A stretch of DNA of 64,000 nt from an uncultured Verrucomicrobiota bacterium (GTDB lineage Bacteria > Verrucomicrobiota > Verrucomicrobiia > Opitutales > Opitutaceae): positions 1 through 64,000 of the forward strand of contig CAIRBK010000082.1 of assembly GCA_903876795.1 (NCBI GenBank), given 5' to 3'. The position numbers were made by a program, and so were the translations under genes. The notes below the pieces were generated by a model, which saw only the letters and a program-made list of their open reading frames with translations, was not told the DNA's origin and did not search any database. Within the stretch, counting starts at the first letter, position 1, and each line of letters starts with the position of its first letter. This document shows positions 2,305 through 43,009 of the stretch, piece after piece.

Positions 2305-4266
2305 ATGACCACCATTCCCGCCATCCAAACCGCCGGTCAGGCCGGCAAGCTGCTCCCCGAGACCGTCACGAACCTGACCGACTGGCTCGGCGCATCGCTC
2401 CCGTCCTGGGCGGTCGCGAGTATCGACGAGCTCGTCGCCAAGCAGGCGTGGGACGAGTTGAACAACCGTTTCTACCGCGACCTCGAGTTCGGCACCGGCG
2501 GCATCCACGGCCGCACCATCGGCCACTTGCCGACTTCCATCGAGGCCGGCGAACCCGGCCCGCAGGGCTCGCCCGCCTACGCCGCCATCGGCAGCAACAT
2601 CCTCAACGACTTCACGCTCACCCGCGCCACCATCGGCCTCTTTCGCTACACCAAGAAATACCTGGCCGATTCCGGCCGCGCCGACATCCCCGCGCTGGTC
2701 ATCGCCCACGACGTGCGCCACTTCTCCCGCCACTTTTGCGAACTGGCCGCCTCGACCTGGACGAAGCTCGGCGGCAACGCCTACATTTTCGAGGGGCCGC
2801 GCTCGACTCCGCAGCTCAGCTTCACCGTGCGTCACCTGCGCGCCCACGCCGGCGTGGTTATCACCGCCAGTCATAATCCGCCCCACGACAACGGCTTCAA
2901 GGCCTACTTCGAGGACGGCGCGCAGGTCGTCGCCCCGCACGACAAAGGCATCGTCAACGAGGTCAACGCCGTGCCGCTCGCCGATCTGGCGGCGTTTCTC
3001 TCCAAGGATATGTCCCGCGTGATCACGCTCGGCCGCTCCACCGAAGACGCTTATCTTGGCGTCGCCACCAAGGCCGCCATCGATACGTCCGTTTTTCACA
3101 AGACCCGGCTCAGGGTTGCGTTCACCAACATCCACGGCACCGGCGGCGTCGTGTCCGTCCCGCTCCTCATCCATGCCGGCGCCGAGGTGCACGAGGTGCA
3201 CGAGCAGGTGACGTTCGACGCGCGTTTCCCGACGGTCAAGTCGCCCAATCCCGAGAATGCCGAGGCGCTCGCGCTCGCCGTGCAACTCGCCGAGAAACAG
3301 CACCTCGACGTCGTGCTCGCCACCGATCCCGACTGCGACCGCATGGGCGTGGCCGTGCGCGGCCCCGACGGCAAGATGCACCTGCTCACCGGAAACCAGA
3401 TCGGCGCGCTGCTGGCCGAGTACCGGCTCTCGAAATACAAGGAACTCGGCATCATCCCCGCGGGCGGCTCCGACCGCGTGGCCATCATCAAGACCTTCGT
3501 CACCACTTCGCTGCAGGACGCCATCGGCCGCGGCCACGGAGTGAAAGTCATCAACACCCTCACCGGTTTCAAGTGGATCGCCGCCAAGATCAAGGGCTAC
3601 GAGGACCGGCTGAAGACCGCCCTCCTGGCCAAGCAGGGCATCGCCCTCAACTACGACTCCACGCCGTTCGACAGCCGCGCCAGGCTCCTCCAGCAGCACA
3701 GCACGTTCTATGCGTTCGGTTGCGAGGAAAGTTACGGCTACCTGCCCAACGACTATGTGCGCGACAAGGACGGCAACGCCGCCTGCCTCATGTTTGCCGA
3801 GCTCTGCGCCGCCGTGAAGGCCCAGGGCAAGACGGTCATCGATTATCTCGACGAGATCTACCTCAAATACGGCTTCTACCTGGAAGGCGTGGTCAACCTC
3901 TACTACGAGGGCGCCAGCGGCGCGGCCAAGATCAAGCGCATCCTGGAGACTTACCGCTCGTCTCCGCCCAAGGCGTTCGGCGACGTCGCGGTGGCCAAGT
4001 TCCAGGATTTTGGCGTCGAGGTGTTCAAGGACGCCGACGGCGAGTCGATCCCGAAGCAGGACCTCTACCTGGTCACGCTGGCCAACGGCTTCAGTTTCGC
4101 CGCGCGCGGCAGCGGCACCGAGCCGAAGATGAAGTTCTATGTCTTCGCCAGCGCCCCGGTGAGGACCGCCGCCGAGCTGGCGGCGGTGAAGACCCAGGTG
4201 AAGGCCGAGCTCGACCGAGTGAAGGCGTTGATCGAGGCCGACGCGCAGAAGCGCGCTGAGGGCTGA
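2305..4266 (+). CDS. Phospho-sugar mutase (phosphoglucomutase/phosphomannomutase family)
   Basis: This 653-residue alpha-D-phosphohexomutase interconverts sugar 6-phosphate and sugar 1-phosphate. All four family signatures are visible. The catalytic phosphoserine loop ITASHNPPHDNGFK has its Ser near residue 189. The magnesium loop ATDPDCDRMGV begins near residue 340. The sugar-selectivity loop is GCEESYGYL. The phosphate-binding loop is RGSGTEPK near residue 602. A length above 550 residues fits the larger PgcA/PGM2-like branch rather than ManB or GlmM. It follows the UDP-sugar pyrophosphorylase by 20 bases and probably feeds it. A REP-like palindromic element begins 11 bases after its stop codon. 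Exact sugar specificity is inferred, not shown. Confidence 0.9.
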   Translation: MTTIPAIQTAGQAGKLLPETVTNLTDWLGASLPSWAVASIDELVAKQAWDELNNRFYRDLEFGTGGIHGRTIGHLPTSIEAGEPGPQGSPAYAAIGSNILNDFTLTRATIGLFRYTKKYLADSGRADIPALVIAHDVRHFSRHFCELAASTWTKLGGNAYIFEGPRSTPQLSFTVRHLRAHAGVVITASHNPPHDNGFKAYFEDGAQVVAPHDKGIVNEVNAVPLADLAAFLSKDMSRVITLGRSTEDAYLGVATKAAIDTSVFHKTRLRVAFTNIHGTGGVVSVPLLIHAGAEVHEVHEQVTFDARFPTVKSPNPENAEALALAVQLAEKQHLDVVLATDPDCDRMGVAVRGPDGKMHLLTGNQIGALLAEYRLSKYKELGIIPAGGSDRVAIIKTFVTTSLQDAIGRGHGVKVINTLTGFKWIAAKIKGYEDRLKTALLAKQGIALNYDSTPFDSRARLLQQHSTFYAFGCEESYGYLPNDYVRDKDGNAACLMFAELCAAVKAQGKTVIDYLDEIYLKYGFYLEGVVNLYYEGASGAAKIKRILETYRSSPPKAFGDVAVAKFQDFGVEVFKDADGESIPKQDLYLVTLANGFSFAARGSGTEPKMKFYVFASAPVRTAAELAAVKTQVKAELDRVKALIEADAQKRAEG

Positions 4267-4277
4267 TGCCTAGGGTT

Positions 4278-4478
4278 GTGAATTAAGACTATCCGGACGA
4301 AACGGCTCCGCCGTTCCGCTACGAATATAACGGCTCAGCCGTTCCGCTACGAATTGTACGGCACCGCCATTCCGCTACGGATTCAACGGTTCCGCCATTC
4401 CGTTACGAATTTCCAAAGTAGCGGAATCGCGGCGCGATTTCGGTTTGGAGATCGTTCAGTCTAAAAGCATCCAGCCAG
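4278..4478. repeat. REP/BIME-like palindromic element, copy 1 (four tandem units plus one inverted unit)
   Basis: This lies in the convergent intergenic space after the phosphosugar mutase. Four units of 27-30 bases (4301-4328, 4329-4357, 4358-4384, 4385-4414) each hold an AACGGC-TCC-GCCGTT-like palindrome followed by CCGCTACG. Read on the minus strand, units 1-3 are GTAG followed by a hairpin, the layout of REP sequences. From 4418 an inverted unit reads GTAGCGGAATCGCGG and pairs with the preceding ones. Inside it AATCGC/GCGATT replaces AACGGC/GCCGTT, so the pairing is kept by matched changes. The outer flanks (GTGAATTAAG at 4278 and CCAGCCAG at 4471-4478) recur at 42796-42911, which has only one unit. 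Confidence 0.85.
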
Positions 4479-4546
4479 AGGTATGAACCCAGGATTTGGC
4501 CAAGCCTTGCCCGCGCCGGGCGGTTCTCCGTTCCGCGCCGGCGGCT

Positions 4547-4882
4547 TCAATACCGCGGCACCGACGGATCAATCGCCAGCGACCAGGCTTCGATCCCGCC
4601 GGCGACGTTGCTGACGGCGTCGTAGCCGTTCGCGCGCAGGTATTGCGTCACCCGTAGGCTGCGTCCGCCGTGGTGGCAGTGGATGAGAAGGTGTTTGTCC
4701 TTGGGCAACGCGCCGAGGTGCTCGGGGATCTGGCGCATCGGGATGTGCTCGGCGCCGGCGATGCGGCACAACGCGACCTCGTGCGGCTCGCGCACGTCGA
4801 TCAGCAGGACCGCATCGGGCGTTTCCTTGAGCAGGCGGTGGGTTTCCTCGACGGAGAGTTCCAGCGGATGGGATTCGGGCAT
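4547..4882 (-). CDS. Single-domain rhodanese-like sulfurtransferase
   Basis: A 111-residue protein consisting of one rhodanese domain, probably cytoplasmic because no signal peptide is seen. The motif LLIDVREPHEVALCRI is the usual N-terminal rhodanese segment. IHCHHGGRS is the active-site loop with the catalytic Cys and CxxxxR spacing, and GYDAVSNVAGGIEAW is the C-terminal signature. Such proteins move sulfane sulfur between small thiols and protein acceptors, like GlpE or PspE. The start ATG at 4882 was chosen because the rhodanese fold begins directly after it; the frame stays open upstream only as the antisense of manC. It is divergent from manC (79 bases apart) and convergent with the phosphosugar mutase. 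Its physiological partner is unknown. Confidence 0.85.
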   Translation of the reverse strand: MPESHPLELSVEETHRLLKETPDAVLLIDVREPHEVALCRIAGAEHIPMRQIPEHLGALPKDKHLLIHCHHGGRSLRVTQYLRANGYDAVSNVAGGIEAWSLAIDPSVPRY

Positions 4883-41818: not shown

Positions 41819-42296
41819 GGCGTTGTGGGAACAATGGTTCAGAAGAACCGGCTTTATGTCGCGATGAAACTCGCAGGTTGAGCCCGGCGGCGTAAAGCCG
41901 ATGTCTTATGAATCTGGCTCAATGCCAGCGTCGCCCGGATCACAAAGCGTCGTTCGGGATTTGCTCCAACGAACGCCGGTGTCGCCGACCGTTTATGACA
42001 AAGGCGTCCGTTAGGGTGTGTTTTTGAAATAACTCAGGTCGTCGAACTCTGCGAGTGAGGGGAGCAGCCGGCTGGGCCGGCGTTGCCCTCGACGGCACGA
42101 CCCGCCGGGTCGCCTCCGTCTCTGTCGCCTTGGCTGAGCCCGTTTCTCCTCTCACGCAGACCCGATTTATTTCAGAAACACACCCTAACGGCGTGCTTTC
42201 TTTTCTCCGTAACTCCGGGGGCGGTTTTGCCCGGGTGCGTTGTGCTGCTGCGTGTCCTTGCCTGCGGGAATGATTCCCGATTGAACCAGCGACCAT
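41819..42296. other. Divergent intergenic region with a MITE-like insertion
   Basis: No gene is supported here. The middle 184 bases form the inverted-repeat element at 42008-42191. Flanking it are a CGTTCG/CGAACG inverted repeat (41951-41956, 41970-41975) and a short CGGGAA/TTCCCG hairpin just before ridA. Promoters for both neighbours must lie here, but no consensus boxes stand out. Confidence 0.55.
42008..42191. mobile_element. MITE-like element with 33-bp terminal inverted repeats
   Basis: The left end (42008-42040) and the reverse complement of the right end (42159-42191) agree at 30 of 33 positions, starting with CCGTTAGGGTGTGTTT and continuing through GAAATAA. The 118-base interior has no transposase frame but holds a CGACCC-GCC-GGGTCG hairpin at 42098-42112. 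A CGT lies directly outside each end (42005-42007 and 42192-42194), possibly a 3-bp target duplication. Size, long inverted ends and lack of coding content are those of a miniature inverted-repeat transposable element. The mobilising transposase is not in this window. Confidence 0.7.
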
Positions 42297-42761: not shown

Positions 42762-42795
42762 GCCCCGATCGATTGCGCCATATTCCGGTGGTTGC

Positions 42796-42911
42796 GTGAA
42801 TTAAGCCTATCCGGACGAAACGGCTCCGCCGTTCCGCTATGGATTTCAAACGTAGCGGAATCGCGGAGCGATTTCGGTTTGGAGATCGTTTTTCTAAAAA
42901 CCTCCAGCCAG
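42796..42911. repeat. REP/BIME-like palindromic element, copy 2 (one unit plus one inverted unit)
   Basis: GTGAATTAAG at 42796 and CTCCAGCCAG at 42902-42911 mark the same flanks as the copy at 4278-4478. Between them a single AACGGC-TCC-GCCGTT unit (42819-42847) faces an inverted unit headed GTAGCGGAATCGCGG (from 42852). Together the two units can pair as a 24-base-arm hairpin with 20 of 24 positions matched. Like copy 1 it lies between convergent genes (ridA and argA). Its length is 116 bases against 201 for copy 1; the 85-base difference equals three tandem units. Confidence 0.85.
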
Positions 42912-43009
42912 TGGCATTGCTCGGCGGGTGGGCAGGGCAGCAGCCCGTCTGTGGGTGATGAATCGGGGCCACTCAGTGACGCCCGATTCGCCCATGATGC
43001 GGGTTGTTT

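Follow-up and report, generated by a model that had tools for sequence, protein, structure and literature searches.

A MITE-like element with a REP-type core dispersed in an Opitutaceae genome

The stretch of DNA analyzed here (hereafter the window; 64,000 nucleotides of a contig from an uncultured member of the Opitutaceae) contains a dense group of hairpin repeats, which raises a simple question: are these repeats a REP family dispersed by its own transposase, or do they form part of a larger mobile element? The initial annotation placed a REP/BIME-like element at 4278-4478. The repeat at this position is real, but the element reaches further and occupies 4264-4486 when its flanking repeats are included.

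Five REP-type hairpin units of the form GTAGCGGAA-stem-GGA-stem-TTTCG were found at 4298-4442. Four are on the minus strand with a 28-bp period, three with GTAG heads (ending at 4322, 4350 and 4378) and one with a GTAA head (ending at 4406), and they are followed by one inverted plus-strand unit with GTAG at 4418, so that the 5' foot of the stem-loop reads GTAG in 4/5 units and GTAA in 1/5. The earlier description of a GTAG 5' of each hairpin, on the minus strand for units 1-3 and on the plus strand for the last, is correct for these four, but it omitted the minus-strand GTAA unit. Unit 1 (4298..4322, minus strand; GTAGCGGAACGGC-GGA-GCCGTTTCG) has a full stem and matches the strict family pattern exactly. 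Unit 2 (4329..4350, minus strand; GTAG head, loop TGA), unit 3 (4358..4378, minus strand; GTAG head) and unit 4 (4385..4406, minus strand; GTAA head) are without the foot TTTCG and can therefore form only a shorter hairpin. Unit 5, the inverted or B unit (4418..4442, plus strand; GTAGCGGAATCGCGGCGCGATTTCG), is covered by a covariance model match at 4368-4457. Paired changes that preserve the stem, previously proposed for the units in general, do distinguish the first unit from the inverted one (CGGC/GCCG vs TCGC/GCGA); the four tandem units, compared by eye, differ instead in the loop or on one side. The tandem expansion noted earlier was recovered by tandem repeats finder (TRF) as a single array at 4301-4411 (period 28, 4.0 copies, 83% matches), and independent repeat finding agreed with this 28-bp register and gave inverted arms at 4298-4322 and 4418-4442. 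As single-stranded DNA, positions 4262-4500 fold only moderately better than shuffled sequences (z -1.89; 6/200 equally good). An Rfam search over 4000-4700 returned two matches, both below the gathering scores. A CRISPR-DR20 match at 4153-4192 on the minus strand (25.2 bits vs a gathering score of 42), inside the phosphoglucomutase gene, is probably due to chance.

How widespread are such units? The short pattern CGTAGCGGAA was rejected as evidence for a family, with 61 matches vs 45 for the reversed control; a stricter unit pattern was used instead, which leaves three stem pairs free and is likewise controlled by its reversal. The strict pattern had 31 matches in the same genome and 0 for the reversed control, and it was present in 12/200 genomes of the family (4/49 by genus), with the control at zero in every row. 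The free stem pairs were Watson-Crick in 98, 98 and 94 of the 101 units listed (124 found), compared with shuffled means of 47, 54 and 60; these counts refer to units and not to independent events, as there are 15 distinct stem types and the six fully paired types make up 88/101 units. A covariance model of the element, built from 24 copies, gave 60 rows over both strands of the genome under study (G000), corresponding to 37 distinct places: 33 two-unit elements (both window copies included), 2 half elements (C60:8946 and C87:15288) and 2 dimers on contig C33. In G008, a genome of the same genus, 93 matches were obtained at E 0.001, and in G015 there was no match at this threshold. A separate GTAG REP family with many copies, as the initial annotation had suggested for a verrucomicrobial host, is thus borne out by 37 distinct places, of which the 30 examined are all extragenic, in a genome that does belong to the Opitutaceae (Verrucomicrobiota).

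The next question is whether the genome also encodes a matching transposase. A RAYT-type gene was found at C33:66317-66847; its product is 68% identical to the query protein from G010, a genome of the same genus in which the gene also lies among GTAGCGGAA units (Pfam PF01797, 19.6 bits vs a cut-off of 23). Tail-to-tail dimers of GTAGCGGAA units lie on either side of the C33 gene, and another single unit is found upstream. Matching REPs thus flank the gene on both sides, and its protein has an HUH motif and a downstream tyrosine. MPDHxH and Y...N are conserved without change in 6/6 aligned proteins, yet the copy of the studied genome reads H-G-H, without the hydrophobic residue. The C33 protein had no Pfam match and scored 37.5 bits with NF047646, the NCBI RAYT model (cut-off 80), with which three of its relatives reached 49 to 51.2 bits, also below the cut-off; because it remains under the curated cut-offs, the protein is classified as a RAYT by its anatomy and company and not by model score. 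A PDB sequence search with this protein returned no match. Since the core of the dispersed elements and the units flanking this gene belong to the same type, the core presumably is, or was, a RAYT substrate. Two Pfam Y1_Tnp genes of the same genome were considered as movers and rejected, their flanks carrying other hairpins than GTAGCGGAA: an IS200-like gene at C86:5291-5629 has its own hairpin GGGCCAAAGGCCC, and a gene at C24:126418-126651 (79.2 bits with the NCBI RAYT model vs 80) has the hairpin GGACGGACC-TCCC-GGTCCGTCC. As each of these genes lies beside its own hairpins, several REP-like systems may coexist in G000.

Relatives of this protein are common in the family, with 62/200 genomes matching the G010 query at E 1e-5 or better. 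Among 30 fetched relative loci, GTAGC/GTGGC hairpins were present within about 350 bp on both sides of the gene in 18, on at least one side in 20 and on neither side in 10, and a hairpin was found in 1/57 control windows far from the gene at the same loci. At other Y1 loci such hairpins occurred on both sides in 0/43 and on one side in 3/43, figures that hold only for GTAGC/GTGGC heads, because L118, a locus outside the clade, has uncounted GTAGG hairpins on both sides. The Y1 gene at L118 (G020) is broken by one TGA and is surrounded by seven GTAGG-headed hairpins. The hairpins differ from one RAYT locus to another (GTAGCGGAA..., GTAGCTGGAC..., GTAGCCC..., GTAGCCAAA..., GTGGCCTTGAG...), and each enzyme therefore seems to have its own REP. 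Two further arrangements were seen in passing: at L186 (G002, about 898-2278) a RAYT-type gene adjoins an array of GTGGCCTTGAGCGTGAGCTCAAGG in alternating orientation with a period of ~139 bp, and at G099:C1:723729-725730 three equal-score Y1 matches 836 bp apart represent a tandem triplication. No RAYT of the C33 clade was found within the 126 kb of G008 examined, a genome outside the 200 included in the protein search.

Thus, both the REP family and the RAYT-type gene expected by the initial annotation exist. That annotation had called for a genome-wide copy count and a RAYT search, and it regarded two copies only and no RAYT-like gene as the sign of a local duplication; the many extragenic copies and the RAYT-type gene contradict the latter outcome. 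A REP dimer family alone is nevertheless not supported as a full account of the dispersed copies, and the reason lies in the sequence around the dimers. Alignment of the copies with their flanks gave a ~137-bp consensus, TACCAATGGTTGCGTGAATTAAGACTATCCGGACG - unit A - GGATTCCCAAC - unit B - GGTTTGGAGATCGTTTAGTCTAAAAGCATCCAGCCATTGGTA. It forms an imperfect palindrome around the REP dimer; its ends are inverted (TACCAATGG...CCATTGGTA), and a 3-bp TNA direct repeat flanks them. The terminal inverted repeats are ~25 bp long (TACCAATGGYTG...TTNAGAC; ends of the TACCAATAGCTG type), and the outer arms measure about 30-40 bp. The whole window element (4267..4483, plus strand; ends TGCCTAGGG... and ...CCAGAGGTA) is 217 bp long, compared with ~137 bp in the consensus, because of its tandem units. 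According to the copy alignment, its left (A) arm at 4267..4297 and its right (B) arm at 4443..4483 each include a terminal inverted repeat, and the 3-bp target duplications, read by eye, are TGA at 4264..4266, which is also the stop codon of the gene at 2305-4266, and TGA at 4484..4486. A second copy in the window, with one A and one B unit (42783..42916, plus strand; covariance model 42802-42891, 111.6 bits), is flanked by ATA and TTG, the duplication being decayed or absent, and folds well as DNA (z -3.97; 0/200 shuffles equally good).

The direct repeat was counted in those 23/33 two-unit elements that had both ends above the cut-offs; ten were dropped beforehand (L054, L061, L062, L063, L066, L076, L077, L078, L081 and the window copy at 4267, whose left end scored 10/19). 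The repeat is exactly 3 bp long with the consensus TNA, its positions agreeing in 18, 17 and 17 of the 23 elements, and for lengths of 2 and 4-9 no position exceeded 10/23. The middle base is the same on both sides in 17/23 and complementary in 4, a value of 17 being reached in 0/100,000 permutations; N is unequal in 6/23 copies, and L065 and L069, which share their flanks and represent one insertion, are counted as two among the 23. A longer target duplication of 8-9 bp, suggested by one locus, proved not to be general among the copies. Within the IS5 family, TNA is also targeted by the IS1031 group. The copies thus have terminal inverted repeats, a target duplication, no gene inside and a size of 137-217 bp, as MITEs do; a REPIN would end at or near the REP pair and have no target duplication, and here there are outer arms and a TNA repeat with equal N. 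To our knowledge, target duplications are not expected from RAYT/IS200-type single-strand transposition, so the inverted ends and the 3-bp repeat point to a DDE-type MITE carrying a REP core.

Judging from sequence comparison, we therefore favor, with a probability of about 0.68, the reading that the element is a MITE with a REP core that spread through its ends by means of a putative DDE-type transposase and was locally expanded in tandem. Such an enzyme would have recognized the ~25-bp inverted ends and inserted the element at TNA, duplicating three bases. At the window locus the A-side unit would subsequently have multiplied to four, spaced 28 bp apart; slippage or unequal exchange is the presumed mechanism, with the RAYT as an alternative. 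The A-side unit is multiplied in three elements in all, namely the window copy (28 bp, four units) and those at C58:8808 and C88:44806, which have a 29-bp period and three units each, partly degenerate.

Do such ends exist apart from this core? In stretches of G008, REP units of local types (GTAGCGGGAC..., GTAGCGAGATCGC...) lie between the same ends, and REP clusters without the ends are also present. Among 11 loci of G008 with two readable ends, TNA was equal in 8 (L232, L233, L234, L241, L242, L246, L291 and L292) and not equal or doubtful in L223, L236 and L254, as judged by eye without a permutation test. At locus L221 of G002 such ends, with TAA on both sides, enclose a different hairpin core, GGGCGAGACGCCC. 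Conversely, REP units occur without the element ends in G010, G060 and G066, where the end pattern had no match at two mismatches; the spread of REPs of the same kind thus does not need the MITE. Three contigs of G008 end inside a longer element that begins with TNA-TACCAATAGCTGTATGATTTTAGAC or nearly so. Its first 25 bases agree with the B arm of the G000 element in 22 (the best of 20,000 shuffles reached 15), and it contains an open frame, MGRKLPLLGEDVV..., that is cut by the contig ends. Assemblies typically break in this way at multi-copy insertion sequences, and this end-sharing element, seen in truncated copies, is therefore a candidate parent insertion sequence. The 35-residue start of its frame had no Pfam match and no match in the plasmid collection, and in the genome under study the end pattern at two mismatches revealed no long element among the 20 places listed out of 25. 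The parent transposase was also sought among the DDE_Tnp_1 genes of five genomes, where 0/30 loci fetched (of 124 matches) had an inverted end pair, and an end-pattern match with two mismatches in G081 (L222) had no opposite end within the 290 bases read. DDE_Tnp_1 matches numbered 107 in G002 vs 1 to 7 in four genomes of the same genus, which may reflect recent amplification or higher assembly quality (3 contigs).

Another question concerns the places where the element has settled. At the window locus a phosphoglucomutase/phosphomannomutase gene (2305..4266, plus strand; Pfam PF02878, PF02879 and PF02880) lies to the left, and a gene with a rhodanese-like domain (4547..4882, minus strand; Pfam PF00581, E 2.8e-18) faces the element from the right, so that the element is situated between convergent genes. 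Genes were predicted from codon usage with a finder trained on the window (coding fraction 0.861); it is crude and missed the rhodanese gene at the window copy. By these predictions, 30/30 elements with fetched flanks (L052-L081) were outside genes. With both neighbors predicted, 14/25 elements were found between convergent genes (0.21 expected from the intergenic length in the window, p 1e-4), and 3' ends accounted for 38/50 neighboring gene ends. A gene stops exactly at the left end of the element in 5/30 (L058, L063, L071, L072 and L074), likewise at the window copy. The location between convergent genes, in some cases directly at a stop codon, suggests that the insertions may carry a low cost, and perhaps that the hairpins could act in both directions at mRNA 3' ends.

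The window also contains a second repeat of ~172 bp (42015-42186) with inverted ends GGGTGTGTTTCTGAAAT and 46 matches in the genome; both ends were present in 16/20 fetched copies. At L259 of G012, a genome of the same genus, like ends surround a DDE_Tnp_1/DUF4096 transposase gene in an element of ~0.9 kb, which by its ends is likely the parent of the 172-bp repeat. In 11/30 cases (L053, L057, L058, L059, L061, L062, L063, L066, L068, L073 and L076) the right arm of the REP element is interrupted by this repeat, at about the same position in 10/11; judged by eye, the insertions have both orientations (L057, L058, L068 and L073 being reversed). Thus, a 172-bp MITE seems to prefer one site within another MITE.

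Which other explanations could account for the dispersed element? It might be a long REPIN or BIME moved by a RAYT alone, the outer arms being conserved flanks that were copied along and TNA a mere target preference. The genome does hold a RAYT-type gene with matching REPs, the inverted dimers are dispersed and extragenic, and tandem REP arrays are known for REPINs (PMC3116915). However, a preference for T and A would not make the middle base equal in 17/23, a different core has the same ends in G002 (L221), as has the longer G008 element, and in G010, G060 and G066 REPs lack these ends as a rule, which makes movement by a RAYT alone unlikely. Slightly less likely still is a MITE with inner hairpins that look like REPs but do not serve as RAYT substrates, as might follow from an ancient capture and later decay. 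The GTGG heads in 8/24 B units, the difference in spacer and B stem between the C33 dimers and the MITE cores, and the inner tandem units without a stem foot would fit such a resemblance, but 20/24 A units retain GTAG (read as CTAC on the plus strand), the units beside the C33 RAYT-type gene have the same head, loop and foot, and the cores and free REPs of G008 are of the same local types.

An immobile duplication confined to this locus, or a bidirectional terminator between convergent genes, is what the genes at 2305-4266 and 4547-4882 and the strong hairpin of the second window copy might bring to mind; 37 places in the same genome, the strict unit in 12/200 genomes of the family and inverted ends with a direct repeat contradict it and leave it highly improbable. 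Beyond the MITE with a REP core that we favor, a more far-reaching and more tentative proposal, for which we see a little over one chance in three, is a doubly mobile chimera, which a DDE enzyme would move by its ends and a RAYT by its core, the core being exchanged between species for the local REP type and the ends staying alike. If so, REPs would hitchhike to new sites on MITEs, and their seeding would be independent of RAYT transposition.

Most parts of this system have known counterparts. GTAG-tagged REPs have been published for Opitutus terrae as families GTAG-17, -19 and -20, of which GTAG-20 has mainly GTGG heads (PMC3733652). They resemble the present units in their GTAG/GTGG stem-loops, bacterial family, tail-to-tail dimers and stem subfamilies with complementary changes, a comparison made by description and not by sequence, and inverted ends with a target duplication are unmentioned in the parts of that report available (PMC3733652). 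REPINs and tandem REP clusters are known from gammaproteobacteria (PMC3116915), as are RAYT cleavage in vitro and the role of GTAG (PMC8266576). The inverted REP pairs, the RAYT flanked by its own REPs and the tandem clusters are shared with those systems; unlike the REPINs described there, the dispersed copies here have additional inverted ends and a 3-bp direct repeat (PMC3116915, PMC8266576). Insertion sequences that land in REPs are also known (PMC1525189); both cases involve DDE-type elements associated with REPs, but there the insertion sequence lands in the REP, whereas here, on our reading, the REP is carried inside the element. The small size, the inverted ends and the short direct repeat are those of bacterial MITEs of DDE insertion sequences, and a relative has a candidate parent that shares the ends; in contrast to such MITEs, the core here is a REP dimer, and the putative parent transposase is known from a partial frame. 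A literature search limited to open-licence papers, as far as their available text goes, revealed no report of a REP core inside a MITE. Known parts appear here in an unusual combination, with two unrelated jumping-gene systems apparently nested in one element.

The curated models place the Opitutaceae RAYT-type clade below their cut-offs (2/2 proteins tested with Pfam and 4/4 with NCBIfam), and this clade, with 20/30 fetched members beside locus-specific GTAG/GTGG hairpins, represents a ready set for studies of the co-change of enzyme and hairpin. With regard to how REPs arrive at new chromosomal sites, RAYT cleavage has been demonstrated in vitro (PMC8266576), and dispersal is inferred. The DDE-type ends and the target duplication around a REP dimer would offer a second, testable dispersal route for REPs.
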